From assembly GCF_036373705.1 (NCBI RefSeq), contig NC_089863.1, forward strand, positions 21,567,619 through 21,631,618: a stretch of DNA of 64,000 nucleotides. The letters are read 5' to 3'. The notes below the pieces were generated by a model. It ran no database searches, was not told the origin of the DNA, and saw only the letters and a list, made by a program, of their open reading frames with translations. This DNA is from Amia ocellicauda. Lineage: Eukaryota > Chordata > Actinopteri > Amiiformes > Amiidae. The translations under genes and the position numbers were made by a program. Below are positions 13,941-64,000 of the stretch, piece after piece; position 1 is the stretch's first letter; each line of letters starts with the position of its first letter.

Positions 13941-16527
13941 ATGTTGCAGGTTGTGTACGAGTGGTTCTGGTGGGACCGGCTCTGGCTGCCCTACAACCTG
14001 ACCTGGTCGGACCTGCAGGATCGCGATGGCCGCGTCTATGCCAAGGCCACCGACCTGTGGGTGACCCTGCCGCTCGCCCTGCTCTTCATGGTCATCCGCC
14101 AGCTGTTTGAGCGGTGAGTCTGGGGCCGTGGCAGCGCCCCCTGCGACCATGAGGGGAAGTGCGGCCTTGAAGTCTCTCTCTCTTGAAGACTTCTCTCTCT
14201 CTCTCTCTCAATGCTGATCCATGTCTGCCCCCCCCAGGTATTTGGCCACGCCCCTGGCCAGTTTGCTGGGGGTGCGAGAGACGGTGCGGCCCAGAGCCAA
14301 CCACAACCCCACACTGGAGAGCTTCTACAACAGCAGCGCCAAGCACCCCAAACAGGTCAGCCCTGACACACTCACCCATTCGTCCGCACACAAACACACG
14401 TAGACACACACACCCACACCAATCCATCCCTACTTAAACACACGCACCCCTTCCCCCACTTCACACACACACACACAACCTCTCCACACAAATGCACACA
14501 CCCTGCCCACAAAAACACACATACAAATCCCCCACTCCCCACTCACACACACACCCCTCCCCACTTAAACACACACCCAACCCCCCCACACACAAACACA
14601 CAGGTTTGGAAACCTTTAGACAAGCCGTTCTCTTCTAACAGAGTGATGTGGAGAGCTTGTCCAGGCAGACGGGCTGCTCTGTGCGTCAGGTCCAGCGCTG
14701 GTTCCGGCGCCGGAGGAACCAGGACCGGCCCAGCCTGCTCAAGAAGTTCCGGGAGGCCAGGTAGGCCAGCGCCACTCAGCGTAACGCACCGCCCACGACA
14801 TACCGGGTCACGGGACTGCACTGTACAACACTCCTGCCGCTCACAGCCACACGCCACCGCGGTGATACTGCATACACGGCACAGAAGGGACACAGCCATC
14901 AGAGCCACACATGTCCCACGAGCACATGCACCGCACTGCCGCACCACAGCAGCACAGCACAGGGTGCAGTGCAGTCCCACACACATCTGTGTTGTCAGTG
15001 GTCAGTGTGTAGTGCTTGTGTCAGTAGTGTCTGTCAGTACATGTACATCTGTCTGTATCTGTGTGTGTAAGTGTTTGATTCGAGTCAGTGAGTATGTGCA
15101 TGTCTGTGTCTGCGTGTGTCTGTGTGTGTTGTGACATTACCTCTGAAACAGTCTTTTGTTTGCTTGTGAACAACAGAGTCACTGTTCATTCAGCATTACA
15201 ATCTGGCTCCCTCCCTCCCTCCTCTGTCAAGGCAGTGTGTGTGTGTGTGTGTGTGAAACTGTGTCTGCAGTGTGTGTGTGTGTGTGTGTATGAGAGAAAC
15301 TGTGTGTCCACAGTGTGTGTTGAGACCGTGTGCTTCTCTTCCAGTTGGAGATTTACCTTTTACCTTCTTGCTTTCATTGCTGGCCTGGCGGCGCTGATCG
15401 ATGTGAGTATTCCTCTCCTCCCTCTCTCCCTCCCTCCCTCTATCCTCCTCTCCCTCCCCCTCTCAGCCTCTTGTTTCACTCTTCTCTGTGTCTCTACTGT
15501 ACCTCTTCCTCAGCCATCCTCTCCCTCCCTCTCATCCTCCGATTTTAATAAAATGAACAAAAAACAGAAATACAATCGTTCACAAGTTGTGCTGATATCT
15601 CTCTCTCTCTCTTTCTCTCTCGTGTGTTTCAGAAACCATGGTTTTATGACCTGAAGGAGGTTTGGAAAGGATTCCCCACTCTGGTTTGTTTATAATTATT
15701 ATTGCAAATACTTATTATTAGTAGTAGTGCTGTTATTTACGTGTTGATATCCATATTGTTAAATCTCCTTTTTCCCCTCCTCCACTCTTGCCACCCCTTC
15801 CCTCTCTCCTCGCCTCTCCAGACGATGCTGCCCTCTCAGTATTGGTATTATATGATTGAGCTGGGATTCTACTGGTCTCTGCTGTTCAGTGTGGCATCTG
15901 ACGTCAAGAGGAAAGTGAGTCTTGATCCCCCCCTTCGGTGTGTGTGTGTGTGTGTCAGTAAACAGGAAAAAAGTATCTGATCAAGAGTTTTAACCACTTT
16001 CTCTCTCTGTCTATCTCCCTCTCTCTCTCTCTCTCAGGACTTTAATGAGCAGATCGTCCACCATGTTGCCACTATAATCCTGATCAGTTTCTCTTGGTGT
16101 GTGAATTACATCCGTGCCGGCACTCTCATCATGTTTGTGCACGACTCCTCGGACTACCTGCTGGAGGTACGGACACACTGACGCACTGACCGATTGACGG
16201 AAAGCACGCACTGATGGACTAATGCAATGACTGACGCACTGACCGTCTCCCTCTCTCTCAGTCTGCAAAGATGTTCAACTACGCCGGCTGGAAGAACACC
16301 TGTAATGCCATCTTCATCGTCTTCGCCGCCATCTTCATCTTCACACGCCTGGTCATCTTCCCCTTCTGGTGAGACGCGCACAACACCAGACACAAGACAC
16401 CGCTCGCACAACACAAACACACACAAAACACACTACATACCCTGTACACATTGACGCACACTGCACGCACTACACACTGTACACCCCTCTCCCGGACACT
16501 GTACTGTACATGGGTGTCAGTGTGTAT

Positions 16528-24592: not shown

Positions 24593-38904
<14,312 letters not shown>

Positions 38905-42790: not shown

Positions 42791-42970
42791 TCAGTTGTTG
42801 ATCTGCTCCTCCTGCCAGGTGGAGGTGGGGATGGCGCTGTACGGGTCCATCACCATCTGGGCACAGCGCACCACTGTCACCAGCAGGAAGAAGCACAGCA
42901 GCCCCAGGAAGGCCAGAGCGAAGCCCTTGTCCACATCCACGGCAAACTGGGGGGTGGGGGCTGCATCCAT
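42791..42970 (-). CDS. CTXND2: Cortexin-domain micropeptide (CTXND2-like)
   Basis: A single-exon CDS of 59 aa. The minus-strand acceptor CTGCAG (a long CT tract precedes it) is followed by TG and then ATG, so 5' UTR exon(s) lie upstream and were not found. A short polar N-terminus (MDAAPTPQFAVDVDKG) precedes one TM helix (about residues 17-36, ALAFLGLLCFFLLVTVVRC), then the cortexin signature RCAQMVMDPYSAIPTSTW and a short tail ending EEQINN. Cortexins are single-pass neuronal membrane proteins with conserved RC-x5-DPY-x2-(M/I)P-x-S-(S/T)W after the helix, and all of that is here. It is shorter than CTXN1-3 (about 80 aa), which points to the CTXND group. The 2-like label is inferred from size and locus. 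Function is unknown. Confidence 0.75.
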   Translation of the reverse strand: MDAAPTPQFAVDVDKGFALAFLGLLCFFLLVTVVRCAQMVMDPYSAIPTSTWQEEQINN

Positions 42971-42972
42971 CA

Positions 42973-42973
42973 C

Positions 42974-43012
<39 letters not shown>

Positions 43013-45180
43013 GGAGGGAGGTAGAGAGAGGGAGAGGGAGAGTTCAAACATAAACAGCATAGGCTTGAAAAAGTATGTGAACTCAGATTCTCAGTAACTG
43101 ATAGAACCGCCTTTAAGCACTGATAACTTCAAGAAAACATTTTGTGTATTTGCTGCTCAGACCTGCACAACGGTTACCCTGATATTCTCCTGTGGAATTT
43201 CCTGATACAATTTTGAATTCATTGTCCCCTCAATGATTGCAAGCCGTCCAGGCCCTGAGGCAGCAAAGCAGCCCCAAACCAGGATACTCCCTCTGCCATG
43301 CCCCTTCTGTTAGAACACTGTGCTCAATAAAGACACGTAAAAGTACACATCACACTGTTAATCTATTGTTATGACTTAGCTGAAGATCAGACTATATTTT
43401 AGGAGCCATTTATGCAGGCAATTCAAAAGGGTTCACAAACTTTTTCTTGCAACTGTACACACACACACTCAAATTCACACGCACACAGTCACACACACAC
43501 ACACACACACACTGTGCCCTGACACAGGCAGACAACAGTGTCTCCATCAAAGTGTTTCAGTGTGTCTGTCCCCAGCTCCTCCGTTCCAGGCTGTATGACC
43601 ACTGAGCTGCTCCCGTCTGCCCTGTTCTGGAGCCCGGTACCATCCATCAGCGCTGATGCCAAGAACGGTGTTGCATCTGTGTGTGTGTGTGTGTGTCAGT
43701 GTGCCCCTGCATGAGTGTCCACTCACCGCTCTCTCTCCGTGTCCGACTCAGTCTCCGTCCGCGATCCCAAACACCTGTTTTCCCGCTGGCATCCTGGAGA
43801 ATATTTCTGTCAGCTCCTCCTACCCCCACGAGTGACTTCTTAGCCCCCATCTCCCTCCCATCTCTTCTAGATGTCCAATATGATACAGTTCAGTACAGGA
43901 ATGCCCCCCCCCCACACACACACACAACTCACTCTCTCCCTCTCTCTCTCTCTCTCCCTCCCTCCCTCTCTCTCATTTTCATACACCCTCATGAATACTT
44001 CAGGACAGCCCTGGTGTTGGGTGTCAGCCTGGAGGGGGTTGCAATGTTCAGACCAATTCCCTCTCTCCCACCCAAAGCTTCCAGAAAAAAATACATTGAT
44101 GGACAATTAAATAAAGATATAAATATTTATATTTATATAAATGTATATATAAAGATAATCTGGAAGTCTGTGTGTATGTGTGGGTGTATTTCTGCATGTG
44201 TTTTTGTGCGTGTGTGCATGTCTGTGTGTGTAACTTGACCCAAAGCACAGACCTGCCACTGCTGTTATGTTGTGTGCTGTGTGCTGTGTTTTGCATTGTG
44301 TGTTGTGGGCTGTGTACTGTGTGTGTTCTGTGGTGTAAGCTGTGTGCTGTGTTTGTGTTGTGCTGTGTGTGTTTTGTGCTGTGTCCTGTGTGTGGTTGTT
44401 GTGAGCTGTGTGCTGTGTGTGTTATGCTTGTGTGAGTGTGTTGTGTGTGGGTGTTTTGTGAGCTGTGTGTGTTATGAGCTGTGTGTGTTGTGTGTGTGTG
44501 TGTGTGTGTGAGTGTGTTGTGTGTGGAAAGCTGATCTCAAGGAGGCGGAGGATGGGTAACTGGAAAACTGTCAATGTCAAGCTACACAAGAGTGCGACCC
44601 AGGGGAGTTGTCAATCGATCCCCAGTCCGGGGGCTCAGTGGGCCTGAACTACATACAGTGACAGTGTAAACAGAGCTCCTTGTCACGCCTCGCCACCCTG
44701 TCACTGAGCTACATGCCTGCGTTGTGTTCATTGCATTATAAGAAACATAAGAAAGTTTACAAACAAGAAGAGGCCATTCGACCCATCGTGCTCGTTTGAT
44801 TTCCATTAATAACTAAGTGATCCAAGAATCCTATCCAGTCTGCTTTTAAATGTTCCCAAATTGTCCTTCAGTCACCTCACTGGGGAGTTTGTTCAGATTG
44901 TGACGCCTCTGTGTGTGAAGAAGTGTCTCCTGTTTTCTGTCTCGAATGCCTTGAAGCCCAGTTTCCATTTGTGTCCAAGGGTCCCTGTGTCCCTGCTTAC
45001 ACTGTGTTTAATTTGATGTGATTGCATGCATGTGTTATTGTATTGCATTATGGTTGTGTGTATTTTATTTATGTATTTATTGAAATCTACAAGAACCCAA
45101 AAAGGTTGGCATTGAAAGTTCTGATGTGTCGTTTGTGCTGTTTGTTTGTTGTGCGAGGGCCTCTGTCTCCACTCTTATCT
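42973..45180. other. Intergenic DNA between the micropeptide gene and ARNT promoter
   Basis: No exon could be supported, though the micropeptide gene's 5' UTR exon should be here. The stretch contains GA repeats (42976-43040), a CA tract (43493-43512), GT-rich TGTGTGCTGTGT repeats (44265-44525) and an inverted LINE 3' fragment (44738-45000). Confidence 0.55.
44738..45000 (-). mobile_element. LINE 3' fragment, inverted relative to the 36.8 kb copy
   Basis: The reverse complement matches 36800-36957 and 37088-37130 and preserves the middle portion missing there (GGAAATCAAACGAGCACGAT). On the minus strand it reads like the tail of a non-LTR retrotransposon ORF and 3' UTR. Confidence 0.6.
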
Positions 45181-56432: not shown

Positions 56433-57735
56433 CTCTGTGAGAGACAGTATGTGTGTGTGGTCCAGGTACACAGTGTTAACTTCTCAGTGTTTGGAGAGAT
56501 GAAACAACAGCAAAGAGGAGAGAAAGAGAGAGAAAGAGTGGGGTGCAGAGAGAGGTGGGTAGGAGAGGAATGGAAGGATGGATGGAGGGATGGTGTCAGT
56601 AAGGTCAGCGTGGTTCTGATGAGCAATGAGGGCACTGACTGTTAGTGCAGCCGACTGTCTTGTCAGCAGAGGGACACATTGACCGGGCTCTGGGACTCTG
56701 GGGCTCTGGGTTCTGGGCACTCTGGGACTCTGGGCTCCACTCAAGGACGATGTTTTAATACGAGACGGAAAACATCAACCATGAGAAATTCTCTTATTTT
56801 TCTTTTGTGTTAAAATGTTACAATCATTATGTATTTTTATTTTTCTTGCAATCACCTTCAGACTCAGAGGAAGCTGAGAGGGAGAGGGAGAGGGGTTGAG
56901 AGGGAGAGAGGCTGAGAGGTAGAGGGAGAGGGAGAGGAGCTGAGAGGGAGAGGAGCTGACGCACTGTGTAGCTTTGATTCTTTATCTGTATGCGTCTGTA
57001 AATATGTTCCTGCAGCTGAGAGAGGAGGTGGAACTGTCCAGCTCTCCTTCATCATCATCATCATGGTTTGTGTATTGATCTTTTCTCTTCAGTACTTGTA
57101 ACACAAGAGCGAGGTTTGCATCCAGTTGTTTGTCTTGAGACTTCACTAACCATAGCGGCACATGCTCTTCAGCAGTGTTCGGTAGTGAAGCAGGGACTGC
57201 AGAGACACAGTCCAGTCCAGTCCAGCAGGGTCTCAGCCCTGGTCCTGCAGAGACACAGTCCAGTCCAGTTGAGCTGTGGTGTTTATTTCCAGGGGCCGGG
57301 CCGGGCTGTTTGGGCCTCTGGGTTATACGGACTGTGTTTAGCAATACTGTAGGAGCCACGGGGCCCCGTGTCTGTGTGGGTCTGGCTCCTCTCAGCCCTG
57401 AGCTGCGGCTGAAACAGGGTTTAATTTCATGTGGTATTATTGTTATTGTTACTATTATTATTTTTAAATGTAAGGTATTCATTTTGGGGGGATGAGGGTC
57501 TGTGTGTTTTTTATTCTCCACCCAGGTTACAATCATGTGATATATACCGTATAAATATATATAGAAATATATATGAAAAAGGAGGATGGAAAGTAAGTGT
57601 AAAGAAAAAAAAAAGCCTTTTTTTATCTGTTTTTGTAAACTGTTGTAAAGTAAAGCAATACGTTGTGGTTGAAGTGTTCGCCTCAGCATCTCCTGTCTTT
57701 CCTTTGGAGTTTTAAAAGGAAAAAAATACAATAAT
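56216..57735 (+). other. ARNT: ARNT 3' UTR (probable)
   Basis: No coding signal. It has GT tracts (56365-56455), a GA-rich patch, and two copies of a CTGCAGAGACACAGTCCAGT repeat (57195 and 57245). An AATACA near 57725, followed by GCGTGTCTCTGTT, is a possible end signal. No AATAAA was seen in a convincing position. Confidence 0.4.
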
Positions 57736-59186
57736 ACTGTTTTTACTGTAAACCTGCGTGTCTCTGTTATTGACCCCCGTCTATTGCACATCTATTCAGT
57801 TCCATACCAGGGTAAACATTCTCCCAAATGTTCTGCTTTAAATTCTAGTTATTATTAACAGTTAGACAAAGTATTTTCATGTAGTATGCATTGTAGTTAT
57901 GATGATGATGTGATTAAGATGGTAGGGATCCACACGCAGATGAGTGTGCTCAAGTCCGGATAAACCCAACAGGCTACAGGGGCTGCAGCCCAGGGCCCCG
58001 GCCACTAGAGGGCTCGGCGAGCACGGTTGACAATGGAAAAATTGTTAAAGGGGAACTCCACCGAAAATACATATGTTTTCAGGTTATTCTATAAGTAGAA
58101 ACATATTCTGTGCAGTGAGTTTTTTATGTCCAGCTCCTTCTATGTACCAGAAATCAGAGATGGAAAAATGTGCCGTGACGTCACGGATGTACTAACTGGA
58201 GCTGCTGCTGGGAGTCAATGGGGGAAATCAGACAATCATTAAAACAACATTTTTTGCATGTTTGATTGCCCCATCACGCTATTTTCCGAAAGATCCATCG
58301 GTGTGTGGTCCTAAAAGGTTTTTTCCACCACCCAGAACTATTACTATTATTTTATATGATTATTTTATCGCTCACCCTGGTGATTAAAAACGCTCTTTGC
58401 TTCTGTCAGGAAAATAGAACCAAAGAGGTTGTTTTTTCCGACAACAATATGGATTAGGAATCCAGAGTTGAGGAAGAAAATACAGGGTATATATATATAG
58501 TTTATTGACTACAAAGGGGAAATTTAAAACGATATGAGTGTGTGTGTTATAGGTGACGGTTATACGGTTTTAATAAGAAAAGTAACCTAAATTACCATAT
58601 CAATAGAAAAAGTAAGTTTAAAATAAATTTTAACACGAAAATATTGTTACATAATAGTCTATAATATTACATAAATAATATACTTTAGTTAAACTTGACA
58701 TCTGAAGATATTTAACCGACTGACTATGGACTTAATAACCATAAATAGTATTAATTATAGTGATAATAATATAATGACACTTTTTTTTTTTTACAGCATT
58801 ACTCAAATTTATTTTGTTTTAAACATGGTATCTATTTCACTTTTGAATACTGTTTAGTTTCTTGTAGAGCTGTCTGATGTATTGAGCATTTTCTTCATTA
58901 CCAATTGTAAAACAAACTCAAATATAGCAGATTAAGATTAGTCATATTTGACCAATCTATTTGAATAAAGTTATGCCGTAATCACGTGGGCCCACCTCAG
59001 TCACGACTCTTCTCGTTGTGATGCAGCTCTTCTGTCACAATAAGGTGAGGCACCTGTCCGCAGCCGAGCAGGGCGCCCCAGCGTCTGATTGGCTGAGTTG
59101 GCCCCTGTGAGGCCCCGCCGCCCGCCCGGCTCTGCGCTCTGCTCTCTGTTCATCTGGTGTTGTTTTTGCCCCTGCAGCTGGCGGCC
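57736..59186. other. Intergenic DNA between ARNT and the Ig-receptor gene
   Basis: A/T-rich, with no exon. A segment beginning TTAAAGGGGAACTCCACCGA (58045) looks like a DNA-transposon end, but no partner end was found. CACGTG (58984) and a CpG-richer patch (59000-59180) just upstream of the ATG may be the receptor promoter. Confidence 0.5.
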
Positions 59187-59889
59187 ATGAGCGCCCCCCC
59201 CGCACTGGCGCTCCTGCTCCTCGGCATAGCAGCCCGTGAGTTCACCTGCACTGCTCTTATTGTTGTTATTATTATTATTATTATTATTATAACAATACCA
59301 TAACATGACTGTAGTTCTTCTTCTTGTTGTTCTTGTTTGTTCTTAATTTTATTTATGCTACTTTCATTTACGCTGCTTATCGGTCTCATCAAAGGCAATC
59401 CGCTGTACTAAGTTCTTGATGTTTGCTGATTCAGCACAGAACGTATTATATTTTAAAATGCGATTGTATAATAAAAACCATGATTATATATAAGTAATAA
59501 CACAAATATTAATGATGTGTTATGTATGTGTTATCCAAAGCCACCTACCTATCAACTGAGACATTATACTGGTTGGACAAAAACGTGTAGAAGTTGAAAC
59601 AATCAATAGTTCTTTATCAGTAATAATTTAGTAGGAAGCCGTATAATCAGCAGCAGTATAATTAAGGTTGTTTAATACTATTAATAATCAATATAATAAT
59701 AATACAAGTACAGTATAATAATAACACTATTTTACAATATGCATGTACATTTTATATATTTATATTTATACAATATTTACTTTATTGTAACGCTTGGTTG
59801 TCCGCCGCATCTGAAGACTATATATGCCAACGATTCCAGTTAAAATGCCTTTCGAAAATGTCCTCATTATGTATACATATATAATGTAT

Positions 59890-59939
<50 letters not shown>

Positions 59940-60259
59940 TAATTCATTGTCAGATCCATAAATCCAAAATTGCATAGCCTATAATCGGCTGAAACAATTA
60001 TGAAATGTCATAATATATTATTTTTATTATTGTATTATATATAAGTATTGTTCCTGAAAAAATAATCGTGGTAATGCTGTAATTTAGTATGCCTAATCAT
60101 GATCAACAATGCAGACAATTATTCTACAGTTTGTCTATTTTAATTTGACAAATCACAAAATGACACGGCTCTTCTCCCTAGTTCAAAACAGGCGAAAATG
60201 GGATTGAGTGTAAAATTAAACCACTTAATAACGATTTATTACACTATAAAATATGTTTG

Positions 60260-60314
<55 letters not shown>

Positions 60315-63300
60315 GATCTGTGCAAATCCACATTATTGTTTTATTGTTCCGGGTGGAGTTTGTATTAATTAATTACCTAATTGCCTTGATTTGTTTTAAA
60401 CACGTTATATATAACGTTGCATTAAAAATAAATTAGTTATGAGCATTTTGAAAAAAAACAACGCTAAATCGAGCTGGATATAGGAATGCCACAATAATTG
60501 AAATATAAATCTGAAATCGCCGGCGGCTTGAAAATAATGTGGCAGAGAAATGAGCTACGAAATGAAAGAAATTAAAACATGGAATCTTCTGTCCTTTCTT
60601 TTTGTTCTTCTTTCTCTGGATATTCCTCTTTTCTTTTCACTCATCGTTTTATTTGTAATCTTAATCCTATTTTTAATTATGCATTTGTTGAATTTGAGTG
60701 TATTTTTAACATTTGTTTCGTTTCCCTTTGTATTAATGTATTGTATGTTATTTATCCTGCATTATTTATCCACTGTACTGCATTGTGCCACTGTCTCCCG
60801 TCTCGCCCGCAGGCGCAGTGTGCGGTTCGGCGGACCCGGTGCCGCTCGTTTTCGGGGCTGTCGGCGAGAATACAACGCTGTCCTGTCTGCTAGACTCGGT
60901 GCCCTCCTCCTTCTCTCACGTCAGCTGGTACCGACAGGACGCCGGGGGTCGTGTGGAGCTCCTGGCATATTTCAGCACGTATGCACTCGCGTACGGCCGG
61001 TACTCGGCGACGCTCTCTCCGGACAACAGGAACATGACCCTGACCATGTCCAACCTGAGCCTCAGCGACTCCGGCCACTATTTCTGTGTCGTGCGTGCTG
61101 CTCTCCAGTTCTACCCCGGGAGCGCCTCCGCGCTGGTCGTGACAGGTGAGGAAAGCGTCTAAACCCGGTCCCAGAAGTTTGGGGTCGCTGGGATTTTATT
61201 TTCATGTTTTTATTTGTCAGTGAGTGTGTCAATGTGTCAGTGTGTCAGGCAGTCAGTCATTGTATCAGTGTGTTAGTCTGTCCGTCAGTCAGTGTGTCAG
61301 TCTGTCTGTGTGTCAGTCAGTGTGTCAGGCAGTCAGTCAGTGTATCAGTGTCGTCTAAACCCGGTCCCAGAAGTTTGGGGTCGCTGGGATTTTATTTTCA
61401 TGTTTTTATTTGTCAGTGAGTGTGTCAATGTGTCAGTGTGTCAGGCAGTCAGTCATTGTATCAGTGTGTTAGTCTGTCCGTCAGTCAGTGTGTCAGTCTG
61501 TCTGTGTGTCAGTCAGTGTGTCAGGCAGTCAGTCAGTGTATCAGTGTCGTCTAAACCCGGTCCCAGAAGTTTGGGGTCGCTGGGATTTTATTTTCATGTT
61601 TTTATTTGTCAGTGAGTGTGTCAATGTGTCAGTGTGTCAGGCAGTCAGTCATTGTATCAGTGTGTTAGTCTGTCCGTCAGTCAGTGTGTCAGTCTGTCTG
61701 TGTGTCAGTCAGTGTGTCAGGCAGTCAGTCAGTGTATCAGTGTGTCAGTCCGTCCATCAGTGTGTCAATCTATCAGTGTGTCAGGCAGTCAGTGTGTCAG
61801 GCAGTCTATCAGTGTATCAGTGTCGTCTAAACCCGGTCCCAGAAGTTTGGGGTCGCTGGGATTTTATTTTCATGTTTTTATTTGTCAGTGAGTGTGTCAG
61901 TCTGTCTGTGTGTCAGGCAGTCAGTCAGTGTGTCAGACAGTCTGTGTGTCAGACAGTCAGTCTGTGTGTCAGACAGTCAGTCAGTGTATCAGTGTGTCAA
62001 TCTATCAGTGTGTCAGGCAGTCAGTGTGTCAGTGTGTCAGTGCATCAGTCAGTAAGTCAGTGTGTCAGACAGTCTGTGTGTCAGACAGTAAGTCAGTGTG
62101 TCAGTCCGTCCGTCAGTGTGTCAGGCAGTCTGTCAGTGTGTCAGTCAGTCAGTGCATCAGTCAGTGTGTCTGGCAGTCTATCAGTGTATCAGTGTGTCAG
62201 TCTGTCAGTCTGTCAGTCTCTCAGTCTCTCAGTCAGTTAGTGTGTCAGTCTGTCTGTGTGTCAGTTAGTCAGTGTGTCAGTCAGGGAATATGTTTTCCTC
62301 TATAAAATCCTGTGAATGAAGTTAACGTGAATGTGTGTCAGATCCACAGAGGGCGCCGCGCCTGGAGCTGTTTTCTGTGCAGGAGGAGGAGGAAGAGAGC
62401 AGGATGGTGCTGCTGTGTGAGGTGCGAGGCTGGGGGGGGGCAGGCTGGGAGCCCCCTGTCTGGAGCCTGCGGGACCCCAAGGGAGTGGAGAAGGAGGAGG
62501 TGGGGGAGTGGGGGTGGTCATTTGACTCGGACAACGAGTTCACCCTCTCCTCTCTCTGGGAACAGCGAGGCCCCGCCCCCTTCGCTTGCCTGATTCACCG
62601 AACCAACGGCACTGTAGTCCAGGCAGCGCTGGAGAGCCCAGACCGTCTGCAGGGTAACGACAGCTGCCAGCACACACACTCTGTCCCTGTCCCTCTGTCT
62701 CTGTCTCTGTCTCTGTCTCTGTCTCTGTCACAATTCTAATTCAGAATTCAGAAAGGATTCACAGATCCCATCCCTCACTCAGTGTGTTGTTGTGGCAGGC
62801 ATGTGCCTGCTGTTGCTGTCCCTGGGCGTCTTGGCTGTGGTTCTGCTGGCTCTGGCTCTGGCAGCTCTGTGCCACCGGAGACGACTGGTCCGAAAAGCAG
62901 CAGGTCTGGCCCACATTAACCAGCATCATTTAATGAGGATTGGAAGTAGAATAAGAATTGATTAACAGACAGACACACTGACTGACTGACAGACACACTG
63001 ACAGACACACTGACTGACTGACTGACTGACTGACTTACACACTGACTGTCTGTCTGTCTATTTCTGCTCAGTGTGTAATGGTAGTTTTCTCTGGTTGTGT
63101 TACAGACCCCAGTGGACACAGGGAACACCCAGCCCCCCCCTCACGCCACACCACCCCCCCCAAGCGCTCAGTGCAGCACAGTGCGGTAAGAAACCAACAC
63201 ACTGACACACTGACACACACACTTACACAATGATGCACAGACAGTGGGTTCAATCCCAGGTGAGGGACACTGCTGCTGTACAAACCCTGCTATATGAATG

Positions 63301-63491
63301 GGTGATTGTATGTAAAAATGTGATACAGTGTAACAGTTGTAAATCTCCCTGGATAAGGGCATCTGCAAAGAAATATAATAACCAAACTGCTAATTGGATT
63401 AATTAGATAATTAATTGATTACCTGTCTCTCTCTTCCTGTGCACCCCCCTCCTTTCTCTCTCAGACGGAGTACTCCTCTCTCAATCTGTGA
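59187..63491 (+). CDS. V-C-type immunoglobulin receptor with TEYSSL tail motif
   Basis: Predicted type I cell-surface receptor. Exons: 59187-59235, 60813-61145, 62342-62653, 62799-62903, 63106-63185, 63465-63491. They sum to 302 codons (301 aa), and most introns are phase 1, as usual in Ig genes. Residues 1 to about 22 are a signal peptide. The V-type domain (about 25-127) has Cys41, W55 (HVSWYRQ), DSGHYFC with Cys108, and glycosylation sites at N36, N90 and N97. The second Ig domain (about 129-230) has Cys153, W168 and Cys210. A TM helix (about 233-256, very Leu/Ala-rich) follows, then CHRRR and a tail rich in Pro/His. The last eight residues, TEYSSLNL, fit TxYxxL, close to ITSM/ITIM consensus, suggesting an inhibitory or switch-type signal. 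There is no FGxG J motif. I do not recognise a specific orthologue; relatives may include NITR-like, SIRP/B7-like or TCR-like fish receptors. Confidence 0.82.
59896..59940. repeat. (AT)n microsatellite followed by CA
   Basis: A pure AT run of about 34 bases followed by a short CA run. Confidence 0.95.
60263..60312. repeat. (AAT)n microsatellite
   Basis: About 16 AAT units in intron 1 of the Ig-receptor gene. Confidence 0.95.
61156..62285. repeat. 196-base tandem repeat plus CAGTGTGT minisatellite
   Basis: Intron 2 of the Ig-receptor gene. A unit starting CGTCTAAACCCGGTCCCAGA begins at 61156, 61352, 61548 and 61824. The first three are spaced exactly 196 bases apart; the last spacing is 276. 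Each ends in GTCAGT-rich sequence, which then expands alone to about 62285. The first unit starts 11 bases past the V-exon donor. Confidence 0.95.
63225..63385 (+). mobile_element. Degenerate tRNA-derived SINE with LINE-type tail
   Basis: GGTTCAATCCC (63247) is a good Pol III B-box. About 90 bases later comes TAAATCTCCCTGGATAAGGG then CATCTGCAAAGAAATATAAT, a diverged form of the tail at 22995. It lies in the last intron of the Ig-receptor gene. No proper A-box was identified. Confidence 0.6.
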
Positions 63492-64000
63492 CGGGTCACA
63501 TGCCAAATCCAGTCCTGGGAGGTCACCCTCGGTCAGGGATCTAATTGAACTTCATAATTGCTTAATTGGATTAATATTACAGCCTTCAAGTTTAAAGAGC
63601 CTTACTGAATTGGACTGGACCTGCAGGAACAGGACTGTGCACCACACACAGACACACAGAGTGGACATTAAATATATCTGGATGGACATTGAGTGGACAT
63701 TATTTTTATATTACATTTTACTATAATTGAGTTATATGTCATTGTGTTGAGTTTTGGATGAGTGTGAACTGTGCATTGTTTCTGTATCAATGTGTTGAGC
63801 TCCTGATTAAACTGTCTTGCCCATGTGAGTCCTGCGTGAATTGGCTATTCTTGTCTATATACATAAATGGGCTTCTTTCTCAAACTGTGTACAATCACTG
63901 TTCTCTCTCTGGAAATGGAAATATAAATTGTTTTTTTCATTTGCAGAAAAAATAACAATAACAGCAACGACCCCTGTGGTCTGAGGCTTTGATCAGTGTT
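63492..64000 (+). other. 3' UTR of the Ig-receptor gene and downstream DNA
   Basis: Begins at the TGA (63489-63491). ATTAAA at 63806-63811 with a GTGAGTCCTGCGTG element about 20 bases on is a plausible poly(A) site. The last 170 bases show no feature. Confidence 0.5.
63806..63811 (+). terminator. Poly(A) signal ATTAAA of the Ig-receptor gene
   Basis: The commonest AATAAA variant, about 315 bases past the stop, followed by GT-rich sequence. Confidence 0.5.

Follow-up and report, generated by a model that had tools for sequence, protein, structure and literature searches.

Two-domain receptors of the immunoglobulin superfamily (IgSF) with tyrosine motifs in their tails are a large known kind, which includes the NITR and SIRP receptors and others. 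Teleost NITRs are described as type I proteins that have one or two immunoglobulin (Ig) domains and a continuous VJ, and that are encoded in a diversified gene complex (PMC7916673, excerpt). Several genes of VJ-C1 type are known from tetrapods, and some of these are linked to paralogous regions of the major histocompatibility complex (MHC), while the VJ-C1 gene UrIg is reported in the shark MHC; UrIg and the MHC VJ genes NKp30 and PRARP are regarded as signs of a proto-MHC that held antigen-receptor precursors, and human chromosome 1 counts as one of four major MHC paralogous regions (PMC10751288, excerpt). Each of the nine members of the CD28 family carries just one V domain (PMC11599192, excerpt). 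The gene described here lies in a 64,000-nucleotide stretch of the Amia ocellicauda genome (assembly GCF_036373705.1, contig NC_089863.1, positions 21,567,619 to 21,631,618, forward strand; hereafter the window) and encodes a predicted IgSF receptor of 301 residues.

The predicted protein has the anatomy of a type I membrane receptor, with a V domain, a C-like domain, a transmembrane helix and a cytoplasmic tail. Our preferred reading, at about even odds, is that of an inhibitory or switch-type receptor that would act through its tail tyrosine. A preliminary description, drawn from the sequence, proposed the same anatomy, which is supported, and called the receptor unassigned, which agrees with Pfam, where only generic Ig models score above the cut-off. 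The further suggestion of an undescribed system is not established, since the receptor belongs to the known kind outlined above. No literature on an Ig receptor beside ARNT was found among the matches listed, but ARNT-specific searching was narrow and absence from print is not implied.

Gene model and Ig domains

Six exons (Table 1) join in phase to give 301 codons and a stop, and all introns are GT-AG, with phases 1, 1, 1, 1 and 0. The six-exon model proposed earlier is thus recovered with identical coordinates, and with TEYSSLNL as its end. Phase-1 introns on either side of each Ig exon are the usual pattern of IgSF genes. The G+C content is 0.48-0.73 in the exons (at least 0.63 in five of the six) and 0.28-0.49 in the introns. 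The V exon is certainly real; exon 3, the transmembrane exon and the gene as a whole are very likely real, and the last two joins (4-5 and 5-6) are likely to be correct. Intron 2 is rich in tandem repeats. Directly after the exon 2 donor, at 61156-61743, a 196-base unit is present three times at 100% identity, which reflects either an array of very recent origin or an artefact of assembly.

On the Pfam V-set model, where the cut-off is 26 bits, the whole protein scores 59 bits (E 6.4e-16) and exon 2 alone 62.1 bits (E 6.7e-17), which bears out the earlier identification of a V domain. Together with this match, Cys 24 and Cys 91 of the B and F strands and Trp 38 of the C strand, numbered within exon 2, place the domain in the V-set. 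A loose V-type pattern, Cys-Trp-DxGxYxC, which was devised after exon 2 had been inspected, occurs once in open frames of at least 90 codons in the window and in none of 50 first-order Markov windows. When judged against the FGxG consensus, the J-like end, FYPGSASALVV, keeps the F and the second G, lacks the first Gly and has S for T. By tblastn the receptor is single-copy within the window, with no second V copy (best other V match E 0.71) and no second C copy (best other C match E 0.46). Among viral and prokaryote contigs, 16 and 173 pattern-matched stretches respectively gave no confirmed relative of exon 2, a result with no bearing on fishes, and the prokaryote models of NCBIfam match neither exon 2 nor exon 3. 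Single-sequence structure prediction gave a mean pLDDT of 44.1 for exon 2 and 48.1 for exon 3, too poor for a fold search.

An antigen-receptor-like V domain in a protein of the described NITR anatomy raises the question of whether this is a NITR-type receptor. Many NITRs carry inhibitory tail motifs. By comparison with the published description of NITRs, this assignment seems unlikely: one copy is present in 64 kb, as opposed to a diversified gene complex, the J-like end lacks the first Gly of FGxG, and the second domain tends towards C1 and not towards the NITR intermediate domain.

The CD28 family, including PD-1, was considered and rejected, since an Ig-sized, in-phase C-like exon follows the V exon. 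Exon 3 can be skipped in frame, so that a one-domain form is conceivable, and the exclusion holds if the gene model is right. PD-1 of sterlet, gar and teleosts is described as lacking canonical V residues, C23 and W41 among them (PMC11599192, excerpt), whereas both are present here.

Exon 3 is Ig-sized, open and in phase, but matches no Pfam family up to E 10. On an ad hoc C1 profile it scores 4.5 bits, a value reached by 4 of 1000 shuffles (810 of the 1000 reported); on the same profile all 12 left-out true C1 domains score 25.5-93.0, and the divergent C1 domain TRAC scores 2.7. In the PDB, exon 3 has a single match up to E 10, to the C1 domain beta-2-microglobulin (E 0.85). SIRP-alpha is different: exon 3 shows no match to its D2 (Z -0.2), and it possesses one more C1 domain together with several ITIMs (immunoreceptor tyrosine-based inhibitory motifs). 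There is weak similarity to the C1 domain of tapasin, which is an endoplasmic reticulum chaperone with a different N-terminal domain. From its sequence, exon 3 appears to lean to C1, and no label more specific than C-like is warranted. The C-like domain of the preliminary description stands as an Ig-sized, in-phase exon that is matched by none of the library profiles and has a C1 score far below that of true C1 domains.

The order V then C-like, together with the beta-2-microglobulin match, also fits a non-rearranging VJ-C1 relative of the antigen receptors, of the PRARP/UrIg kind, kept in an MHC paralogous region of the human-chromosome-1 type. In addition, each of the three PDB alignments listed extends past the V domain by about 32 residues, into the light-chain C1 domain. 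Compared by description, UrIg and PRARP are alike to the present gene in having a V domain with a J-like end and then a C-type domain, without rearrangement; they differ in that the C1 identity of exon 3 stays putative. We consider this origin distinctly unlikely.

Table 1. Positions in the window of the exons and 3' flank of the receptor gene
Feature	Positions	Strand	Content
Exon 1	59187-59235	+	Start codon; greater part of the presumed signal peptide; donor CCC|GTGAGT
Exon 2	60813-61145	+	V-set Ig domain; V encoded together with a degenerate J-like G strand
Exon 3	62342-62653	+	C-like Ig domain, C1-leaning, C1 identity putative
Exon 4	62799-62903	+	Transmembrane helix and basic stop-transfer stretch; weak donor CAG|GTCTGG
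Exon 5	63106-63185	+	Proline/basic tail segment, 80 nt
Exon 6	63465-63491 (stop included)	+	Microexon TEYSSLNL, TxYxxL motif
3' flank	63667-63811	+	ATTAAA hexamers resembling poly(A) signals at 63667 and 63806

Predicted membrane topology, tail splicing and the tyrosine motif

The N-terminus is hydrophobic, with a best 19-residue hydropathy window of 1.75; the signal peptide proposed earlier is kept on this ground, as one presumed from hydropathy alone. The best 19-residue window for the transmembrane helix is 3.0, from residue 234, and the helix is uncharged. Four N-glycosylation sequons are present. The tail has 46 residues and a single tyrosine, which is in TEYSSLNL. Shuffling of the tail produces TxYxx[LVI] in 118 of 20000 trials and the wider [TSILV]xYxx[LVI] in 585 of 20000. 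By tblastn, with the low-complexity filter off, the Leu/Pro-rich transmembrane-tail piece has one unrelated-looking match in the window (30482-30616, E 0.002).

In the proposed mechanism the V domain would bind a cell-surface ligand, and on engagement a Src-family kinase may phosphorylate the tail tyrosine. An SH2 phosphatase (SHP-1/2), or else an adaptor with an SH2 domain, could then be recruited to the phosphotyrosine, which would damp cell activation. With one tyrosine, signalling might be weak in the monomer, or clustering, dimerisation or a partner receptor in cis may be required.

Several properties of the tail weigh against such signalling. An ITIM has the form [S/I/V/L]xYxx[I/V/L], and the Thr at -2 places TEYSSL outside it. 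The consensus of the immunoreceptor tyrosine-based switch motif (ITSM) is TxYxxV/I (PMC11599192, excerpt), whereas TEYSSL is TxYxxL, with Leu at +3. Thus, TEYSSL falls between ITSM and ITIM, and because it differs from the ITSM, the SAP-type signalling of the preliminary description is a guess. TEYSSL can also be read as a YxxL sorting signal, and the motif hinges on two splice steps, one of which has a weak donor.

YxxL is a common endocytic signal, and a V-C-transmembrane layout with a short tail is that of B7 proteins as well. Perhaps, then, the protein is a B7-like or similar V-C ligand or adhesion protein in which YxxL serves purely for sorting. The V domain is further from PD-L1 and CD80 than from TCR-alpha, PD-1, SIRP-alpha and light-chain V, to which it is nearest. 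On this comparison of sequences B7 membership seems unlikely, and we judge the broader explanation by a ligand or adhesion protein very unlikely.

Splice sites were scored on a consensus matrix and ranked against all GT or AG of the window. Two sites are strong: the exon 2 donor outscores 99.9% of GT, and the exon 6 acceptor 99.7% of AG. At exon 3 the acceptor, which outscores 72.9% of AG, is ordinary, and the donor, which outscores 93.5% of GT, is weak, as is the donor of exon 4 (92.1%). No better donor (score >2) for exon 4 is present in 62799-63105, nor a better acceptor (score >2) for exon 3 in 62250-62360. Skipping of exon 3 or exon 4 keeps both the frame and the tyrosine motif. Retention of intron 4 (286 aa), retention of intron 5 (308 aa) or skipping of exon 5 (292 aa) each gives a tail without the tyrosine, a further point against signalling through it, and therefore the TEYSSLNL tail depends on the predicted 4-5-6 joins. 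No AATAAA is found downstream of the stop codon in the 3' flank.

The weak exon 4 donor, the motif-free product of read-through into intron 4 and the tandem repeats that fill intron 2 would fit a mis-joined 3' part or a decayed gene, with the true product ending in intron 4 or 5 and lacking the tyrosine motif. However, all six exons are open and in phase, the exon 6 acceptor is among the strongest in the window, and exon 5, with its 80 nt, is required to restore the frame in which exon 6 reads TEYSSLNL, and does restore it. We judge a mis-joined or decayed gene very unlikely.

The SETDB1-ARNT neighbourhood

The neighbourhood was scanned with Pfam in 19 distinct chosen open reading frames rather than in the whole window, and 10 of the 19 have no family at E 0.01. 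On the minus strand, SETDB1-type domains (MBD, Tudor_4, Tudor_5 and DUF5604) are above the cut-off and Pre-SET is just below it. On the plus strand, ARNT-type domains are found at about 49.1 kb (HLH) and 49.5 kb (PAS), and a reading frame that ends at about 56.2 kb is what we take to be the ARNT C-terminus. The receptor gene does sit directly after ARNT, as had been proposed, with the bHLH and PAS regions identified by Pfam. In human, SETDB1 and ARNT are likewise head to head, and the gene after ARNT is CTSK.

Between SETDB1 and ARNT, a Cortexin-like sequence is present on the minus strand at 42806-42979, within the open reading frame 42794-43090 (Pfam Cortexin, E 9e-14); to our knowledge this is not a familiar mammalian neighbour. 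At 15696-15977, on the plus strand, a weak TLC-domain match (E 0.0048, below the cut-off) is perhaps a ceramide synthase exon; a ceramide synthase is expected beside SETDB1 by synteny. Between ARNT and the receptor, a Met-initiated open frame of 269 residues on the minus strand (56985-57791) has no Pfam match and is perhaps due to chance.

Possible significance for fish immunity and antigen-receptor origins

If orthologues keep the TEYSSL tail, the gene would extend fish immunity by an unassigned receptor of inhibitory type, at a constant and readily checked point of SETDB1-ARNT synteny. Human ARNT is at 1q21, which we assume to be within the chromosome 1 MHC paralogous region. Given this placement and the linkage of tetrapod VJ-C1 genes to such regions, the VJ-C1 relationship is worth stating. 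In its fullest form, that a V(J)-C1 antigen-receptor relative with an inhibitory-type tail survives in the MHC paralogous region that matches human chromosome 1, we give it only a very slim chance. If it were true, the descendants of the proto-MHC region that kept V(J)-C1 genes would not be limited to the MHC and Ig/TCR ones, and the antigen-receptor precursor may predate the first genome duplication rather than follow it. Were exon 3 to encode a genuine C1 domain, this gene would bear on the place and time at which V-C1 antigen-receptor precursors arose.
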